A model generated the notes under the pieces. It saw nothing but the letters and a program-made list of their open reading frames with translations, was not told the DNA's origin and ran no database searches. Position numbers and translations under genes: made by a program. Shown here piece by piece: positions 54,246 through 62,985 of a stretch of 64,000 nucleotides of DNA. The stretch's first letter is position 1; every line of letters begins with the position of its first letter. The stretch spans positions 1-64,000 of the forward strand of contig JAHDQW010000005.1 in NCBI GenBank assembly GCA_018433585.1, in the 5' to 3' direction. Origin of the DNA: Candidatus Praeruminimicrobium purgamenti (GTDB taxonomy: Bacteria; Elusimicrobiota; Endomicrobiia; Endomicrobiales; Endomicrobiaceae).

Positions 54246-54275
54246 ATAAAAACAAAAGGCGACCTTACGGCCACC
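54246..54275 (-). terminator. Terminator-like GNRA hairpin in the rimP leader (candidate attenuator)
   Basis: In the minus-strand transcript, GGTGGCC (54275-54269) pairs with GGTCGCC (54264-54258), including two G-U wobbles, capped by a GTAA tetraloop and followed by a U-rich tract (to 54246). It lies between the rimP promoter and the rimP Shine-Dalgarno. Confidence 0.6.
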
Positions 54276-54287
54276 CTATATGTTTTA

Positions 54288-54337: not shown

Positions 54338-56113
54338 TCATATATCTATTTTTTTCAAAATCTCGAAAGTTTTATTGTAAAACTTTTCATGTTCTGATAA
54401 ATTCAATCCGCCGCTGTTTTTAGCCTGTGAATATAATGCAGTAGTACATTCTTCCAATATTTGTTCTATTGAATCTATTGTTTCTTTATCAGTACTTCTT
54501 ACTTCAAGTTCCTGCCTTATTTTATAAGCCGTAAGTCCGTCAGCGGATTTTGCCAGAACGGAAGCAAAGTATTCCAGCAAACCTTTATACATAAGCCGGT
54601 AAAATTCTTTATTTTCAATATTTCTCTTTGCTTTTTGAAAATATTTTTTTGATTTTTTATAAGCTTTTTTGTTTTTTAATTTTTGGATATCCCTGTTAAC
54701 ATAACTTTTATATTTAAAAAATATCTTTAAAATAAGCAGTACCGCAAGGATAACGCCTGATACTATCCAAAGCAAAGGTTTTTTTAAAAAAGCATAAACT
54801 TTAAATATAAACGATAAATTTATATTTTGCTGAGGCTGCTCCGCAATCACTTCATTATCTGGTTTATCTTTTAAAGTTGAAGATAAATTATCCTTATTTC
54901 CCTTATTTGAAGAATCTTCTAAAACATTTATTTTAATTACTTGAGCATTCAAAACTTTTACTTGTTTAGTTTTCGGGTCAAAGTATTTTACCGGAAGAAT
55001 TCTTATTTCCCCGTCACCTGCGTTTAACGGCATTATCAGCGTAGTAAATTCTTTTCCGGATTCTTTATTGTTTTCGGTTAAAATCTTTTCAGAAGTTTCA
55101 TATTGTTTTAAATTGTCTGATAAAACGATCTCCGGCTCTTTCAGAGTTTTTATGTTGCCGGTGCCGGAAATAACAATTTTCAAATCAAAAGGTTCGTTCT
55201 CCTTTTTCTGTTTTTTATTTACATCGGCGCTGATTTTAAAATCGCCTACCATTCCGATATTTTCAGGAATCTTCAAAACATTCACGTTTATTTTATCGGT
55301 TGATAATTCTACATTTTTACCTCTTCTGAAAAAACTTGAAAAAAAGTCATCCTGCTCTTTCGAGAAATCTTCAATTGAAACCTGTATTACCGAACTGTCT
55401 ATCGTAACCATTCCGGACTGCTGAGGAAATAAGTCTGTGGAGACTTCTGTTACGATATAATCTCTTCCGTTAATTTTTGTCCTGTAATTATTTTGCGAAG
55501 TCTGTCCGCTGAAAAAACCGCTGAAATTAGGAGCCTGATATGACGGATTCGAAAGAAGATTTACCGACGTATAAAAAGAAAATGTATATGTTATTTTTTC
55601 ATTTATGTAAGCTGTCTTTTTATCAACATTTGCCTGAACAAAAACAGCTTTAGAGGTATCAAAATTGTATACCTGAGACTGTTTATACTGCGTGGCCTGT
55701 GTATTTTGCACAGAAACAGAACTTACATTTTTGGCAGGCTCGATTGTCATTTTTACAGGCTGGGTCTCATAAGTCACGCCTTTATACGTAAGCTTAAAAG
55801 AAGGGATTTCATATTCTCCTGTTTTTTTCGGACCCAAAGTGTAAACATAATTAACCGTATTGCTTACTTTGCCGTTAACTATTGAAAAGTTTTTTGACTG
55901 AGAACTTGCATAGGTATTAAAATCCTTCAAAGTCGGAGCAGAAAAATCAGGCAAAGAGACTGAATCTCCGCTTATTGAAATTGTAAGCTGAAAAGCTTCA
56001 TTCAGAGGAACAGTCGTAGAACTGACGCTTGATTTCATTTGTATACCGTCTGCATAAGAAAATACGCAAAATATCAGACATATCATAAAAACATATATAA
56101 TTTTCTTTTTCAT
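54338..56113 (-). CDS. batD: BatD family protein
   Basis: The 591-residue protein has a signal peptide (about 21 residues), several Ig-like/beta domains in residues 25-400 (SSVSSTTVPLNEAFQLTISISGD at the start, PLNAGDGEIRILPVKYFDP later), a membrane helix near residue 445, and a cytoplasmic helical tail. This is the usual BatD (oxygen tolerance) architecture. It is the last gene of the moxR-bat operon, next to a TPR protein. The function in aerotolerance or envelope stress is known only genetically. Confidence 0.85.
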   Translation of the reverse strand: MKKKIIYVFMICLIFCVFSYADGIQMKSSVSSTTVPLNEAFQLTISISGDSVSLPDFSAPTLKDFNTYASSQSKNFSIVNGKVSNTVNYVYTLGPKKTGEYEIPSFKLTYKGVTYETQPVKMTIEPAKNVSSVSVQNTQATQYKQSQVYNFDTSKAVFVQANVDKKTAYINEKITYTFSFYTSVNLLSNPSYQAPNFSGFFSGQTSQNNYRTKINGRDYIVTEVSTDLFPQQSGMVTIDSSVIQVSIEDFSKEQDDFFSSFFRRGKNVELSTDKINVNVLKIPENIGMVGDFKISADVNKKQKKENEPFDLKIVISGTGNIKTLKEPEIVLSDNLKQYETSEKILTENNKESGKEFTTLIMPLNAGDGEIRILPVKYFDPKTKQVKVLNAQVIKINVLEDSSNKGNKDNLSSTLKDKPDNEVIAEQPQQNINLSFIFKVYAFLKKPLLWIVSGVILAVLLILKIFFKYKSYVNRDIQKLKNKKAYKKSKKYFQKAKRNIENKEFYRLMYKGLLEYFASVLAKSADGLTAYKIRQELEVRSTDKETIDSIEQILEECTTALYSQAKNSGGLNLSEHEKFYNKTFEILKKIDI

Positions 56114-56120
56114 AAATATC

Positions 56121-56810
56121 TCACCAGTTTTTCCCCGTCTTGCTGTTTTGTACGGCAGCCGCTTCTTTTGCTTTATCGTGATTCTGTTTATCCTGATTAT
56201 CGAAATAATCTAACAACTGCCGGTTCTGTTTGTTTTGCTGATCATCTTGTCTGTCTTGTTTATTATTGTTTTCTTTTTTATCATTGTCATCGCCGTTTTT
56301 TCTTTTATCTCCCATGTTTTTCTGCTGTTCTTTATTCTTATCTTTGCTTTTATTTTTATTCTTGTTATCCTTGTCATTATTTTTATCATTCTGCTTATTT
56401 TCATTTTGTATAAATTCTATATTATGTTTAGCCTGAATATCTGAACTGTTTAATTTTAAAGAAGATTTATAATAATTTAAAGATTCTTCTTTATTGCCGG
56501 CTTTATAAGCCGCATTTCCCATATTGTATAAAATCGAACTTTTCAAATTGGCGTCTTTCGTATTATTTAAAGCCGCATCATAATATTCCAAAGCCTTATC
56601 GTATTGTCCGCTTTTATAATATGCACATGCCAAGTCATAATTGATAAAAGGATCTTTCGGATTATTTTTTTGCGCTTTTAAGAAACTTTCGGCCGATTCC
56701 TTAAAGTTATATCTTTTATACTGTTTTGTCCCTCTTGCCATATCATCATTTGCATAAGAGACAGCAGCAGTAAAAATTATAAACATCAGCAATAAAAATA
56801 TTTTTTTCAT
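56121..56810 (-). CDS. BatC-like TPR protein
   Basis: The 229-residue protein has a signal peptide (about 20 residues), three to four TPR units (residues 30-130: YNFKESAESFLKAQKNNPKD, INYDLACAYYKSGQYDKA) and a C-terminal tail of about 90 residues dominated by Asn, Lys, Asp and Gln. This matches BatC: TPRs plus a charged low-complexity tail. It lies between batB and batD in the operon, and probably acts as a periplasmic scaffold. Confidence 0.8.
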   Translation of the reverse strand: MKKIFLLLMFIIFTAAVSYANDDMARGTKQYKRYNFKESAESFLKAQKNNPKDPFINYDLACAYYKSGQYDKALEYYDAALNNTKDANLKSSILYNMGNAAYKAGNKEESLNYYKSSLKLNSSDIQAKHNIEFIQNENKQNDKNNDKDNKNKNKSKDKNKEQQKNMGDKRKNGDDNDKKENNNKQDRQDDQQNKQNRQLLDYFDNQDKQNHDKAKEAAAVQNSKTGKNW

Positions 56811-56824
56811 TTTTAATCTCTGGC

Positions 56825-57820
56825 TTATTTAGATTTCCTTATTTTTACATCAGGTATAAAAATATAAAACAGCAAAAAAATTATTCCTAACGACAGCGGA
56901 AAATAAAATCTTTCTTCAAGATTGCTGAATATATTTGCCGTACCCTCTATTTTATCCAGTTTGTTAAGCCTTGCTGCCAAATCATTAACCGAAGACTGCC
57001 CCAAATTATAATATTTACCGCCTGTTGCCGAAGATATCTGCTCCAATGTTGCAGAATCAAGTCTTGTGACAACGGTTTTGCCTTTTTCATCTTTTAAATA
57101 TTCTTTAAACTCTCCGTTCTCGTAAGTCGGTATCGGCTCTCCTTTGTCAGTACCTATGCCTATGCAGAAAACTCTTGTTCTGCTGTCTATTGCAAACTGC
57201 ACGGATTTATTCAAATCCCCTTCAAAACTTTCTCCGTCCGTAATAATTACGACAGCTTTGGCGTTTGACGGAATCTTTTCCAAACTTTTACAAGCCAAAT
57301 CAATCGGAGCCGAAATATTTGTTCCTTCAAAAGGCACTGTTGATGTATCTAAAAGAGAAAGAAACATTTCAAATGCTTTAACGTCTGAGGTCAGCGGGCA
57401 CTGCCAATACGCCTGTCCTGCAAATGCTATAAGACCTATTCTCTGCCCGTTTAACTTTTCAGTTAAATCTTTAAATGCTATTTTTGCCCTTGTAAGCCTG
57501 TCAGGTTTTAAATCCTGCGCAAGCATACTTTTTGAAACATCCAATGCAATAACTATATCGCTTGAAAGTGATTTTGCTTCTACTTTTTTCATTCCCCACT
57601 TAGGTCTGGCTATTGCAAGAACAATAAAAAATAATGCTAGTATAAAACAAATGTTTTTGATTAAGCTCATTCTAAAATTAACGCTCAGCAAACTTTTCCA
57701 CAGAGTCTTTGCCGTAAATTCGCCGACTGTTCTTTTGGAAAATTTATAAGAAACAAACATTATTACCGCCGCCGCGGCAACAACCGTAAAAAGCGATAAT
57801 GCATTTATGTTTTGGAACAT
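56825..57820 (-). CDS. batB: BatB-type von Willebrand factor A membrane protein
   Basis: The 331-residue protein has N-terminal membrane helices (about residues 5-25 and 55-73), a vWA domain with the MIDAS motif DVSKS (about residue 95), TNISAPIDLAC and ITDGESFEG, and a final helix near residue 310. BatB proteins sit in the inner membrane with the vWA domain in the periplasm and bind partner proteins through a metal. It overlaps batA by one base. Confidence 0.87.
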   Translation of the reverse strand: MFQNINALSLFTVVAAAAVIMFVSYKFSKRTVGEFTAKTLWKSLLSVNFRMSLIKNICFILALFFIVLAIARPKWGMKKVEAKSLSSDIVIALDVSKSMLAQDLKPDRLTRAKIAFKDLTEKLNGQRIGLIAFAGQAYWQCPLTSDVKAFEMFLSLLDTSTVPFEGTNISAPIDLACKSLEKIPSNAKAVVIITDGESFEGDLNKSVQFAIDSRTRVFCIGIGTDKGEPIPTYENGEFKEYLKDEKGKTVVTRLDSATLEQISSATGGKYYNLGQSSVNDLAARLNKLDKIEGTANIFSNLEERFYFPLSLGIIFLLFYIFIPDVKIRKSK

Positions 57821-58806
57821 TACGGCAACCTCTTAAAAACAGTAAGTTTTAAAATAAATCCAAAAAGTAAAAGCCAAAATGCAGGAATTAAAAATTTCAA
57901 ATATTGTTCATTATAGTTAACGGATTTTGTAAATTCAACTGTATTTTTCTCCAGCTTATCAATGCTTACAAAAGCCGAGGAGAGAGCATCTGACGTTTGC
58001 GCATAGAAATATTCTCCTCCTGTTTTAGCCGCAATTTCTTTTAACAGAGTTTCGTCTAAGTCTGTTCCCTGAGGTCTTACTCGTCTTTTTCCGAAAAACA
58101 TATCGTCAACTTCATAATAATCTTCCCGGCTGCCTACGCCTACCGTGTATATCTTTATGTTATTATCTTTTGCTATGTTTGAAGCAACCAAAGGATCTAT
58201 TTCACCCATATTATTGTTTCCGTCAGTAAGCAAAATAATTATTTTACTTTTTCCGTCAGTTTTTATAAGTCTGTTAACCGCAGTCGCTATAGCGTTTCCT
58301 ATAGCCGTACCGTCAATTTTAGTTATCTTTGTATCAATATAGTCCACAAAATTAATTAAAGCGTCTTTATCAAGCGTAAGAGGGCACTGAGTAAAAGCTA
58401 TTCCGCTGAAAACAACTATTCCGATTCTGTCGTTCATTCTTTTTAATACAAATTCTTTTGCTCTTGCTTTTGCATTTTCTATTCTGGAAAGGCTTACTGA
58501 AGGGTCTATCGCTTCCATGCTTGTAGACGTATCTATAACAAGCATAATATCAATGCCGTTTGCCTGAAAAATTTCATATTTTGACGAGCTTTGAGGTCTT
58601 GCCAATGCTGCTATCGCAAGAATAAGCCCTGCCAATATCAAAATTTCAGGAATAATCAAAAGTTTTATTCTTAAACTTTTTTGATTATTAAAAAAAGAAA
58701 CCTGAGAAAATTTTAACGAACTTTTTTTATAATATTTTCTTTTTAAGAAAAATAAAATAAGAATTACAGGTATCAGCAATAAAAAATATACGTATAAAAA
58801 TCTCAT
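57820..58806 (-). CDS. batA: BatA-type von Willebrand factor A membrane protein
   Basis: The 328-residue protein has two N-terminal helices, a vWA domain with MIDAS DTSTS (about residue 93), DGTAIGNAIATAVNRL and LLTDGNNNMGEID, and a C-terminal helix. It is a paralogue of the next gene, batB, with which it overlaps by one base, and overlaps the upstream gene by four bases. Together they form the core Bat complex. Confidence 0.87.
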   Translation of the reverse strand: MRFLYVYFLLLIPVILILFFLKRKYYKKSSLKFSQVSFFNNQKSLRIKLLIIPEILILAGLILAIAALARPQSSSKYEIFQANGIDIMLVIDTSTSMEAIDPSVSLSRIENAKARAKEFVLKRMNDRIGIVVFSGIAFTQCPLTLDKDALINFVDYIDTKITKIDGTAIGNAIATAVNRLIKTDGKSKIIILLTDGNNNMGEIDPLVASNIAKDNNIKIYTVGVGSREDYYEVDDMFFGKRRVRPQGTDLDETLLKEIAAKTGGEYFYAQTSDALSSAFVSIDKLEKNTVEFTKSVNYNEQYLKFLIPAFWLLLFGFILKLTVFKRLP

Positions 58807-59681
58807 ATCCTTTCCACAAAACTTTTTGCTTTTTGAAAATCGTCATTTATAGTTTCTACTGACGGTATCACTTTCGCGAATTTTACCAAATCACAGTTTA
58901 TTAAATAATTTTTAAGTTCTCTGTTATAATCATATGAAACTTTATCCTTTAAAAGAACAAAAAGTTCTCCCGTCGTTTTGCCGAGTCCGTCGACATTATA
59001 AACTCTTGATATATAAAATCTCAAAATATCAGACAATTTATCGTAATAATCCTTTATTTGTCCTTTTTCTATAAGATTCAGCGACTGTAAATTTTCAAGC
59101 TGAGACAATGCGTATTCTTTAGGAGGTATTGAACGTATTATTTCATTATGAGTCAAAGCCGGAGATTTTCTTTTCTTAATAAACTTGTATATACAATATA
59201 TCACAAACAAAACAATAATTATTGCCAATATTATTTTAATATACCACCAAGCGCTGTGTCCGAAAGAATAAATTCCTTTTATATCAAAAATATCACGGCT
59301 AGGTTTCTTAGGATTTAAAACACTTTTAATTTCTATCTGTTCCGCTTTTGTCTTTATAAATTTTGACAGCCCGTTAACAGTAAAATTTATGTCGGCCGAA
59401 AGCAGTTCAACTTTTCCGGCTTTGAATGAAGTCATAATAAAAGCAACTGCTCCGTCAGAATCAGGTTGAACATCAAGCAACTCAAAATCTCCGAAATCGG
59501 CAGACTGCAGTTTCTTTTTATCAATATTTTCGGCAGTTAGTCCTTCAGCTTTAATTTTTAAAGTAATTTTATCGCCTACCGTGAGATTATCTTTAGGGAA
59601 AAGCGTCTGCTCAAAAGCAAAGCAGTTTACCGATAATACCAAGAAAAAAAAGATTGTTATCAGTTTTATTTTGTTTTTCAT
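58803..59681 (-). CDS. DUF4381-like membrane protein of the Bat operon
   Basis: The 292-residue protein has a signal peptide (about 22 residues), a beta-rich periplasmic domain (residues 25-140), one membrane helix around residues 145-168, and a C-terminal cytoplasmic helical domain (KEYALSQLENLQSLNLIEKGQIKDYYDKLSDILRFYIS). The C-terminal part resembles DUF4381, commonly encoded between the DUF58 and vWA genes of Bat operons. Role is inferred from context. Confidence 0.7.
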   Translation of the reverse strand: MKNKIKLITIFFFLVLSVNCFAFEQTLFPKDNLTVGDKITLKIKAEGLTAENIDKKKLQSADFGDFELLDVQPDSDGAVAFIMTSFKAGKVELLSADINFTVNGLSKFIKTKAEQIEIKSVLNPKKPSRDIFDIKGIYSFGHSAWWYIKIILAIIIVLFVIYCIYKFIKKRKSPALTHNEIIRSIPPKEYALSQLENLQSLNLIEKGQIKDYYDKLSDILRFYISRVYNVDGLGKTTGELFVLLKDKVSYDYNRELKNYLINCDLVKFAKVIPSVETINDDFQKAKSFVERI

Positions 59682-59687
59682 ATATTT

Positions 59688-60944
59688 TTATTTTATTTTT
59701 ACAGAATTTATATCAGATGCCGGCGTACTTTCATCTGTATCTTTCTCTTTTACCGTAACATTTTCGGCATTCAGAGATACGTTCTCGCCTATAATCACTG
59801 ACGATGCCCCTGAAAAGCATGTCTCATTGCCGTTTTTTTCTTTTTCGTATAAAATTTTTATTTTTTCTATTGCTTCCGGATACTTTTGATCAGCTGAAAG
59901 TTTAAACCATTTTTTTGCCTCTTCCTCATTTTGAGACACGCCTTCGCCGTTATAATACATTATTCCCAGCATATACTGTCCTTCCATATCATTGTATTTT
60001 TCGGCTGCAGCTTTAAAATAATCAAAAGCAAGAGGGTAATTCTGAGGAACATTTAACCCTTCATAATAAATAACTCCGAGCATATAAACAGCTTCTTTTT
60101 TATCGCTTACCGAAGCACGCCTGAAATATTCAAGAGCGGCAGGATAGTTTTTATAACCCAAATCTCCGTAATAGCACATCATTCCGAGAGCATATTCGGC
60201 ATCGGCATTACCTTGTTTTGCAGCTTTATTGTACCAGTTGAAAGCAGATTTATAATTTTTATTATCATAATAATAATCGCCCAATTCCATCTGAGCCTTA
60301 TCATATCCTGCTTCTGCCGATTCTTTAAACAATTCCCTGGCAGTTTCTATATCTTGTGACAACCCTTCTCCGTTTTCATACATTATTCCCAAACGGTACT
60401 GGGCCCTTTTATCTTTTTGTTCCGATGCTTTTTTATACCATTTAGCAGCTTCATCGACATTTTTTTCAGTAATAACGCCGTTATAATACAGTTCGCCCAT
60501 TTTATACTGAGCATAAACATTTGCATTTTGTGCGGATTTCTGATACCACTTAAATGCTTCTTTCATATCTTTTTTTACGCCGGTTCCGTTCTCATACATT
60601 TCGCCCAGATAAAATTGCGCTCCGCTTTGTTCCTGTAAAGCCGCTTTTTTATACCATTTGACAGCTTCTTCATCACTTTGGCGAATATTTCCTGTACCGC
60701 TTGCATGAAAACCGCCTATTTCATACTGCGCATTTGGATTGCCCTGTAAAGCAGATTTTTTAAGCCATTTATACGCTTCGTGGTAATTTGCGTCCATACC
60801 GTCGCCGTTATAATACATCATACCTATTTTGTATTGCGCTATCGGATCTTTTTCATCCTGATTTATTTCAAAACACAAAACATTTCTATAACCGGTAAAA
60901 AATACAGTTACAGCAAAAAGCGATATCAGCAATATTTTTTTCAT
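59688..60944 (-). CDS. Secreted Sel1-repeat protein
   Basis: The 418-residue protein has a signal peptide, then about nine Sel1-like repeats of ~36 residues (AQYKIGMMYYNGDGMDANYHEAYKWLKKSA and similar) from residue 35 to about 370, and a short Ser/Thr tail. Sel1 repeats form helical solenoids that scaffold protein complexes. Its presence inside a Bat operon is unusual; it could replace or add to TPR scaffolding. It lies six bases upstream of the DUF4381-like gene. Confidence 0.88.
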   Translation of the reverse strand: MKKILLISLFAVTVFFTGYRNVLCFEINQDEKDPIAQYKIGMMYYNGDGMDANYHEAYKWLKKSALQGNPNAQYEIGGFHASGTGNIRQSDEEAVKWYKKAALQEQSGAQFYLGEMYENGTGVKKDMKEAFKWYQKSAQNANVYAQYKMGELYYNGVITEKNVDEAAKWYKKASEQKDKRAQYRLGIMYENGEGLSQDIETARELFKESAEAGYDKAQMELGDYYYDNKNYKSAFNWYNKAAKQGNADAEYALGMMCYYGDLGYKNYPAALEYFRRASVSDKKEAVYMLGVIYYEGLNVPQNYPLAFDYFKAAAEKYNDMEGQYMLGIMYYNGEGVSQNEEEAKKWFKLSADQKYPEAIEKIKILYEKEKNGNETCFSGASSVIIGENVSLNAENVTVKEKDTDESTPASDINSVKIK

Positions 60945-60976: not shown

Positions 60977-61864
60977 TTAATAATGCTTAAGAACTTTTTT
61001 TTCTCTGTTCTTAAAAAACTTAATTAATTCAAATATATAAGGCTTATCCGTAGAAATATCAATAACATCAGATTTTGAGGTTTTAAAAATATTATTCAAA
61101 TAATCATTATGCTCTTTTAAATTTTTATAATATTCATTACGAACATTATACGATGAAAGATCAACGTTAAACACAGCCCCCGTTTCGGCATCTTCAATGG
61201 TAAAAATTCCTTTTGACGGAAGTTTTTGTTCTTTTGGATCTGAAATTTTAACGCATACCAAATCATGCCTTTTCGACGTTACTTTTAACAACTTGTCGAA
61301 ATTTCTATCATAAAAATCAGATATAAGAAATACCAAAGCTTTTCTTTTATATAATTTGTTTAAATATCTTAACGCATTTTCTATATTTGTCTTTTTGTTC
61401 TGAGGTTTATAACTCAAAATAATATCAATAAGCTTCAATATATGTTTCTTGTTTTTTTTAGGCTTAATATATTTTTCTACGATATCGGTAAAAGCCAAAA
61501 GTCCTGCACGGTCATTATTTTTTAATGCCGAAAATGCAAGAACCGAGGTTAATTCCGCTATTAACTCATTTTTTGTAATGTCCTTGCTTCCGAAATGTCC
61601 CGAAGCGCTTAAATCGGCGACAAACATTACTGTCTGTTCTCTTTCTTCGTCGTATTTCTTAACGTACGGCCTGTCTCTTCTAGCCGTAACATTCCATGAA
61701 ATTCTCCTTATATCGTCTCCGGGAGCATATTCTCTGACTTCACTGAATTCAAGACCCTGACCTTTAAAAACGCTGTGATATTTTCCTGAAAAAACATCAT
61801 CAACAAGTTTTTTTGATCTGAGTTCTATTTTTTTTATCTTTGATAGAATTTCCGAATTTAACAA
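60977..61864 (-). CDS. DUF58 domain protein
   Basis: The 295-residue protein matches DUF58: KYHSVFKGQGLEFSEVREYAPGDDIRRISWN near residue 30, then DRPYVKKYDEEREQTVMFVADLSAS. DUF58 proteins resemble vWA folds and are nearly always encoded next to a MoxR ATPase, forming part of a metal-linked chaperone system. The start is TTG at 61864, with GGAG seven bases upstream. Confidence 0.9.
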   Translation of the reverse strand: MLNSEILSKIKKIELRSKKLVDDVFSGKYHSVFKGQGLEFSEVREYAPGDDIRRISWNVTARRDRPYVKKYDEEREQTVMFVADLSASGHFGSKDITKNELIAELTSVLAFSALKNNDRAGLLAFTDIVEKYIKPKKNKKHILKLIDIILSYKPQNKKTNIENALRYLNKLYKRKALVFLISDFYDRNFDKLLKVTSKRHDLVCVKISDPKEQKLPSKGIFTIEDAETGAVFNVDLSSYNVRNEYYKNLKEHNDYLNNIFKTSKSDVIDISTDKPYIFELIKFFKNREKKVLKHY

Positions 61865-61908: not shown

Positions 61909-62904
61909 TTACGGCACTTCAACGCCGTCAAAAATCTGTTTTATTACATCATCGCTTGTAAGTTCCTGCGCATCTGCGTCATAAGTTGTAAGTATTCTGT
62001 GCCTTAAAACATCCGGACCGATATCTTTTATATCCTCGGGAGTTACAAAACCTCTGCCGTTTAAAAATGCCAGAGCCTTCCCTGCCAAGTTTAAGTTAAT
62101 CGTAGCTCTCGGAGAAGCTCCGAAAGCTATAAGATTTTTTAACTCTTTAAGATTATATTTTTCAGGTTTTCTTGTGGCAAAAACAATATCAACTATATAA
62201 TTTTTCACTTTTTCGTCAACATAAATATCATCAACAGCTTTTTTGGCTTCTTCCAAATCTTTTAGAGTCAAAACTGAATTTATTTCTATTTTTTTTCTTG
62301 TTGAATATCTGTCCAATATAGCTCTTTCTTCCTGTTCGTTAGGATAATCAAGTTTAAGTTTAAGCATAAATCTGTCGACTTGTGCTTCCGCTAAAGGATA
62401 TGTCCCTTCCTGTTCTATAGGGTTCTGTGTCGCAAGAACCAAAAAAGGGTCCGGAAGAGGATAAGTAACATCTCCTATGGTAACTTGTCTTTCCTGCATT
62501 GCTTCCAAAAAAGCACTTTGAACTTTTGCAGGAGCTCTGTTTATTTCATCTGCCAGAATAAAGTTCGAAAAAACAGGTCCTTTTTTGATATTAAAATTAC
62601 ACTGTTTTGCGTCATAAATTAATGTCCCCGTCAAATCTGACGGCAACAAATCAGGCGTAAATTGTATTCTTTTAAAATCTCCCGAAACGGCTTTAGCCAT
62701 CGTGTTAACTGCCAATGTTTTCGCAAGACCGGGCACACCCTCAAGCAATATATGTCCGTCTGACAAAAGACCGACCAGCATCCTTTCTATAATATAATTT
62801 TGACCGACTATAACCTTTGAAACTTCATTTAATAAACCTTTAATTGCCAAAGATTGCTGCTTAACTTTTTCATTTAAACTTTTAATATCAACAGTTTCTG
62901 ACAT
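61909..62904 (-). CDS. moxR: MoxR-family AAA+ ATPase
   Basis: The 331-residue AAA+ protein has Walker A GVPGLAKT, Walker B ILADEINRAP, sensor 1 LATQNPIEQEGTYPL, and the C-terminal GASPRATINLNLAGKA segment with the arginine-finger region. MoxR ATPases act as chaperones for metal insertion or complex maturation with DUF58 and vWA proteins. AAAGGAG precedes the ATG. The CIRCE-like repeat and promoter lie immediately upstream. Confidence 0.94.
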   Translation of the reverse strand: MSETVDIKSLNEKVKQQSLAIKGLLNEVSKVIVGQNYIIERMLVGLLSDGHILLEGVPGLAKTLAVNTMAKAVSGDFKRIQFTPDLLPSDLTGTLIYDAKQCNFNIKKGPVFSNFILADEINRAPAKVQSAFLEAMQERQVTIGDVTYPLPDPFLVLATQNPIEQEGTYPLAEAQVDRFMLKLKLDYPNEQEERAILDRYSTRKKIEINSVLTLKDLEEAKKAVDDIYVDEKVKNYIVDIVFATRKPEKYNLKELKNLIAFGASPRATINLNLAGKALAFLNGRGFVTPEDIKDIGPDVLRHRILTTYDADAQELTSDDVIKQIFDGVEVP

Positions 62905-62931: not shown

Positions 62932-62957
62932 TTAGCACTCTTCCAACTTAGTGCTAA
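62932..62957 (-). promoter_or_regulatory. CIRCE-like inverted repeat (putative HrcA operator) of the moxR-bat operon
   Basis: TTAGCACT (62932-62939) and AGTGCTAA (62950-62957) are a perfect 8-bp inverted repeat separated by 10 bases. The CIRCE consensus is TTAGCACTC-N9-GAGTGCTAA, i.e. the same arms with an 11-base spacing. The element touches the -10 box and covers the expected start site. Confidence 0.7.
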
Positions 62958-62985
62958 TTATATATTTTTATGACTCAAAAATCAA
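62957..62985 (-). promoter_or_regulatory. Sigma-70 promoter of the moxR-bat operon
   Basis: On the minus strand TTGATT (62985-62980) and perfect TATAAT (62962-62957) are separated by 17 bp. The predicted start site near 62950 lies inside the CIRCE-like repeat, so bound repressor would block transcription. Confidence 0.75.

Follow-up and report, generated by a model that had tools for sequence, protein, structure and literature searches.

The promoter of the moxR-bat operon of Candidatus Praeruminimicrobium purgamenti carries an inverted repeat with the arms of CIRCE, the operator of HrcA, and a repeat of this kind stands at the equivalent place in related genomes of two genera. The window analysed in this study is a contig stretch of 64,000 nucleotides in which this operon and its promoter lie. 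The repeat is probably an HrcA operator, at which HrcA would bind, repress moxR-bat and yield to heat. It adds a lineage-specific member to the HrcA regulon, and the finding is real and well supported, though it extends a familiar type of regulation only by a small step.

The first-pass annotation of this DNA described a perfect 8-bp inverted repeat with CIRCE arms, spaced one base under the canonical distance and lying over the start site of a good sigma-70 promoter, and this description was confirmed. The repeat, TTAGCACT-N10-AGTGCTAA, is an exact match (full sequence, TTAGCACTCTTCCAACTTAGTGCTAA), and eight of eight bases in each arm agree with the CIRCE arms TTAGCACT(C)/(G)AGTGCTAA. The available portions of PMC545781 and PMC7464140 give the canonical CIRCE consensus as TTAGCACTC-N9-GAGTGCTAA, in which the gap between 8-bp arms is 11 bases (C+N9+G). 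The arms of the window repeat are 10 bases apart, and its ninth arm pair would mismatch, unlike that of the canonical TTAGCACTC/GAGTGCTAA; strictly taken, the window repeat is a CIRCE-like variant owing to this N10 spacing. On the minus strand before moxR, the order of elements is TTGATT-N17-TATAATTAGCACT-N10-AGTGCTAA, followed by 27 bases to the moxR ATG. The predicted sigma-70-like promoter that faces moxR (TTGATT-N17-TATAAT) has 10 of 12 matches. The repeat and the predicted -10 box have one base in common, the overlap with promoter and start point that marks CIRCE, and the expected start point therefore lies inside the repeat. Moreover, the same promoter layout is found at hrcA and groES in the window genome.

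The genes behind this promoter form a MoxR-Bat operon, with those for a MoxR AAA+ ATPase, a DUF58 protein, VWA proteins (BatA/B), a TPR protein (BatC) and BatD in line on one strand, where neighbouring genes either overlap slightly or stand no more than 45 bases apart (Table 1). The hairpin beyond batD is the probable end of the operon; terminator-like sites in the window number 14, against 5.3 expected in shuffles. By record titles, the best matches of the window moxR belong to Endomicrobiaceae, Elusimicrobiota. The Sel1-repeat gene is also present in the bat operon of the other genome of the genus (L015) and of rumen relatives, but none was observed in the operon of the sister genus (L021/L022).

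Table 1. Coordinates of the operator, promoter and genes of the moxR-bat locus in the window.
Feature	Position	Strand	Basis
CIRCE-like operator	62932..62957	.	exact match; N11 orthologues at the equivalent place in three relatives
-35 box TTGATT, 17-bp spacer	62980..62985	-	promoter prediction; TTGATT also in three relatives
-10 box TATAAT of moxR promoter	62957..62962	-	promoter prediction and aligned relatives; last base common to operator
moxR, MoxR-type AAA+ ATPase (copy 1)	61909..62904	-	Pfam AAA_3 E 5.5e-64, AAA_lid_2
DUF58 protein	60977..61864	-	Pfam DUF58 E 1.2e-71
Sel1-repeat protein inside operon	59688..60944	-	Pfam Sel1
BatX (label used here), between Sel1 gene and batA	58803..59681	-	no Pfam match; position conserved
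BatA-like VWA protein	57820..58806	-	Pfam VWA E 5.3e-22, well past its cut-off; BatA E 0.00068, under that model's cut-off
BatB-like VWA protein	56825..57820	-	Pfam VWA_2 E 1.7e-18
BatC-like TPR protein	56121..56810	-	Pfam TPR families
BatD	54338..56113	-	Pfam BatD E 2.6e-37
Terminator-like hairpin, ~60 bases beyond batD	54256..54277	-	terminator scan

A second, diverged moxR-DUF58-bat operon is located elsewhere in the window genome (C15:105000-111300, L160), and its MoxR is 65% identical to that of the first. A scan of its upstream DNA found no CIRCE. A second moxR also occurs in the three relatives that carry the operator on the first (G001, G062 and G063), and the second moxR type, the L160 copy included, is without CIRCE upstream.

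HrcA-type control of moxR-bat, as the first-pass annotation proposed, is supported by the presence of hrcA and by the N11 form of the operator in three relatives, with HrcA presumably binding the N10 form as well. Neither of the two findings that the annotation named as refuting its proposal was made. The window genome has one hrcA (PF01628, E 7.5e-58), which has a CIRCE of its own and heads a cluster of hrcA-grpE-dnaK with dnaJ farther downstream (names given by eye from the sequences). Its ordinary N11 sites sit on this cluster, on groES of groESL and on clpB. The N11 pattern, allowing up to two mismatches, gave 34 sites across eight related genomes, 31 of which adjoin hrcA, groES, clpB, hsp20 or moxR (own tally; hsp20 named by eye). 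All 22 sites with at most one mismatch adjoin one of these genes, which indicates that the motif is specific. The remaining three of the 34 comprise two without a reference gene alongside (L005 and L265) and a third at G001:C112:55582. CIRCE was found on clpB and groES in 8/8 genomes and on hrcA in 7/8, the N11 scan giving no hrcA CIRCE in G075. Apart from the window site, no N10 site with at most one mismatch was found in the eight genomes, which thus offer no further example of this group's HrcA accepting N10. A weak N11 site near an rplQ-like gene (C7:25272) has three mismatches to the TTAGCACT arms and was not counted as a target. A sigma-32 reading of moxR control was rejected on the finding that the window genome has no RpoH-family match above the curated cut-off; there were two weaker sigma-factor matches.

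Several other CIRCE sites of the group have features of their own. The clpB CIRCE of the window genome (L004 1501-1527, C18:31054) stands in a divergent gap between clpB and the gene of an M48-type peptidase; the peptidase gene may be co-regulated through it. In G062, a CIRCE with no mismatch to TTRGCACT-N11-AGTGCYAA (L181 1501-1527) precedes two small heat-shock protein genes, and before this pair comes a short gene that was judged MerR/HspR-like by eye. In the sister genus, groES is preceded by a tandem CIRCE pair (L264 1512 and 1574 in G062; L266 1458 and 1520 in G063). In the rumen genus, hrcA is preceded by an overlapping double CIRCE (L269 1456-1499 in G064; L271 1397-1440 in G068), with three half-sites of which the middle one serves both.

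Conservation upstream of moxR, by which the first-pass annotation would have the operator judged, held for part of the family. CIRCE is on the moxR promoter in four of four genomes of two genera, namely the window genome (N10), a second genome of its genus (G001/L015) and two genomes of a sister genus (G062/L021, titled Candidatus Proruminimicrobium, and G063/L022), the last three having the canonical N11 spacing. Their sites are TTAGCACT-N11-AGTGCCAA in G001, TTGGCACA-N11-AGTGCCAG in G062 and TTGGCACA-N11-AGTGCCAA in G063, with zero, two and one mismatches to TTRGCACT/AGTGCYAA, respectively. When the four promoters are aligned, all have the TTGATT -35 box and a -10 box running into the repeat, and the arms are conserved between spacers and flanks that differ. 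Upstream of moxR lies mazG in the window's genus and a gene for a 530-aa protein in the sister genus, so that the operator goes with moxR rather than with the gene next to it.

Conservation is confined to these two genera. None of the 12 other genomes with this moxR type has CIRCE there (11 from one genus and one from another; L108 has only 369 bases upstream). Among 59 upstream stretches of other moxR genes (19 from the family and 40 from elsewhere in the phylum), none had a site with at most three mismatches at spacing 10 or 11; three weak sites were at spacing 12-13, and a few stretches were shortened by contig ends (L211, for example, to 269 bases). A scan of 87 loci, which included 64 moxR loci from other phyla (L031-L094), gave no site with at most three mismatches within 200 bases of the gene; many organisms of these other phyla may lack hrcA, and some loci have little upstream DNA. 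A gapped pattern that joined the CIRCE core to the MoxR Walker motif matched only G001 and G063 in 340 Elusimicrobiota genomes; it missed the known positive G062, a sensitivity of 2/3 for N11 sites, and is blind to N10.

The simplest reading of this distribution is a single gain of the operator before the split of the two genera, and loss in other genera is possible. In a tree of joined HrcA, GroEL and ClpB fragments, the two genera with CIRCE on moxR grouped together, apart from the other two (support 1.00, unrooted), and they also grouped together in an HrcA tree for which five further genomes of the family served as outgroup (support 0.87). The MoxR tree was without this grouping and placed G075 with the sister genus.

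The N10 form in the window is best read as a conserved HrcA operator whose spacer has undergone a deletion of one base. This deletion might have gone further and abolished HrcA binding in the window's species, so that a site that works in relatives has decayed and moxR-bat is now constitutive. The lack of N10 among the other strong sites of the window genome and seven relatives agrees with such decay, but the window arms have no mismatches and are nearer the consensus than the AGTGCCAA of G001. Arm bases should be lost from a site that no longer works, although after a recent deletion such loss would not yet be visible; decay is an unlikely alternative. An error of assembly or consensus over a true N11 sequence would also explain the short spacer, since N11 is found in all three relatives carrying the site and the window genome is a draft in 20 contigs. 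However, the spacer has no long homopolymer, and we consider this explanation improbable.

Two further alternatives would deny that the repeat is an operator at all. The repeat lies 30 bases beyond the mazG stop on the same strand and its 8-bp stem can form in a transcript, as would befit an RNA hairpin that serves as the terminator of mazG or as a leader structure. Such a hairpin is very improbable, as there is no U-tract and no terminator call, the folding is no better than that of shuffles (z -0.84), and the repeat stays with moxR where mazG is not upstream. Short sites do arise randomly in AT-rich DNA. Elsewhere in the window genome, N10 matches with two to three mismatches were found at eight places; the two whose flanking genes were listed, L007 (C7:16340) and L014 (C18:67133), adjoin no recognisable heat-shock gene and were set aside, as chance matches might be. 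A chance palindrome is nevertheless scarcely credible at moxR, where CIRCE holds the equivalent promoter position in four genomes; by base composition, about 0.0007 perfect N10 matches are expected in the 1.86-Mb genome, and the moxR site is the one found. Within the window, a scan with at most three mismatches gave two matches, of which the other has three mismatches, where shuffled sequences gave 0.30 on average.

If the repeat is the HrcA operator that we take it to be, HrcA bound there would cover the -10 box and the start point and so exclude RNA polymerase from moxR. The activity of HrcA is maintained or released by chaperone titration. Repression would lift either through inactivation of HrcA by heat or through unfolded proteins that occupy the chaperones on which its activity depends, and moxR-bat would then be made along with DnaK, GroESL and ClpB. 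On B-DNA, a spacer shorter by one base rotates one half-site against the other by about 34 degrees and displaces it by about 3.4 angstrom, compared with the canonical arrangement. The operator would have been gained on the branch to the two sister genera and one spacer base later lost in the window's species with the arms intact. The perfect arms argue that the N10 site is still in use; as there is no other strong N10 site, it may bind HrcA less well, and the loss of the base may weaken repression. In the portions of PMC7464140 available, the HrcA footprint of C. jejuni covers 30-40 bp with the start site and CIRCE inside, and its authors proposed steric interference.

It is conceivable, and we suggest it tentatively, that the two operons divide the MoxR-Bat work. 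The copy lacking CIRCE would do the housekeeping, and the other, placed under HrcA in the ancestor of the two genera, would be the stress copy, through which MoxR-Bat would serve the classical heat-shock response as an inducible arm for chaperoning or repair at the envelope; the N10 form would have been kept as a weaker site with a lower induction threshold than that of groESL. The function of MoxR-Bat is poorly known, and HrcA operators are usually confined to a few core chaperone operons. An HrcA operator conserved at the level of the promoter indicates when the system is needed, namely on protein misfolding, and the presence of CIRCE suggests that moxR-bat is a stress-induced folding or repair system. 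The vague idea of MoxR-Bat as 'chaperone-like' thus becomes directly testable through induction by heat or misfolding. Moreover, the natural N10 spacer is a probe of how strictly HrcA gauges the distance between half-sites.

The open-access literature searched contained no report linking HrcA or CIRCE to MoxR and, as far as the texts available extended, no paper on tests of CIRCE spacer length. A text search of PMC6843607, on the HrcA regulon of H. pylori, gave no occurrence of CIRCE, MoxR, spacing or half-site. In the available part of PMC545781, MoxR appears in the table of another regulator, beside fur and feo genes and outside the CIRCE sites of that paper.

A heat-shock link of MoxR has precedent in Francisella tularensis, for which sigma-32 control was suggested from promoter analysis (as cited in the available part of PMC11432383), so that the link itself is not wholly new, while the route through an HrcA operator was not met in the literature searched, as far as its texts were available. 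Both cases tie a MoxR ATPase to the heat-shock response, by a positive sigma factor there and by a repressor operator here. The same excerpt reports that a cyanobacterial MoxR protects citrate synthase against thermal aggregation in an ATP-dependent manner. The Leptospira bat cluster with moxR and htpG, as outlined in part of PMC3557215, likewise groups moxR-bat with a heat-shock chaperone gene, by gene neighbourhood rather than by a shared operator as here. In Chlamydia, groEL and the duplicates groEL2 and groEL3 also have only one copy under CIRCE (PMC8762339, in the portion available), whereas the duplicated system here is moxR-bat. The closest likeness of kind is to the class I HrcA/CIRCE regulon (hrcA-grpE-dnaK, groESL), which the window genome matches in the operator arms, in the overlap with the -10 box and start point, and in having hrcA and the standard targets; it differs in that the target in the window is a MoxR-Bat operon and in a spacer one base short, which is canonical in the three relatives.
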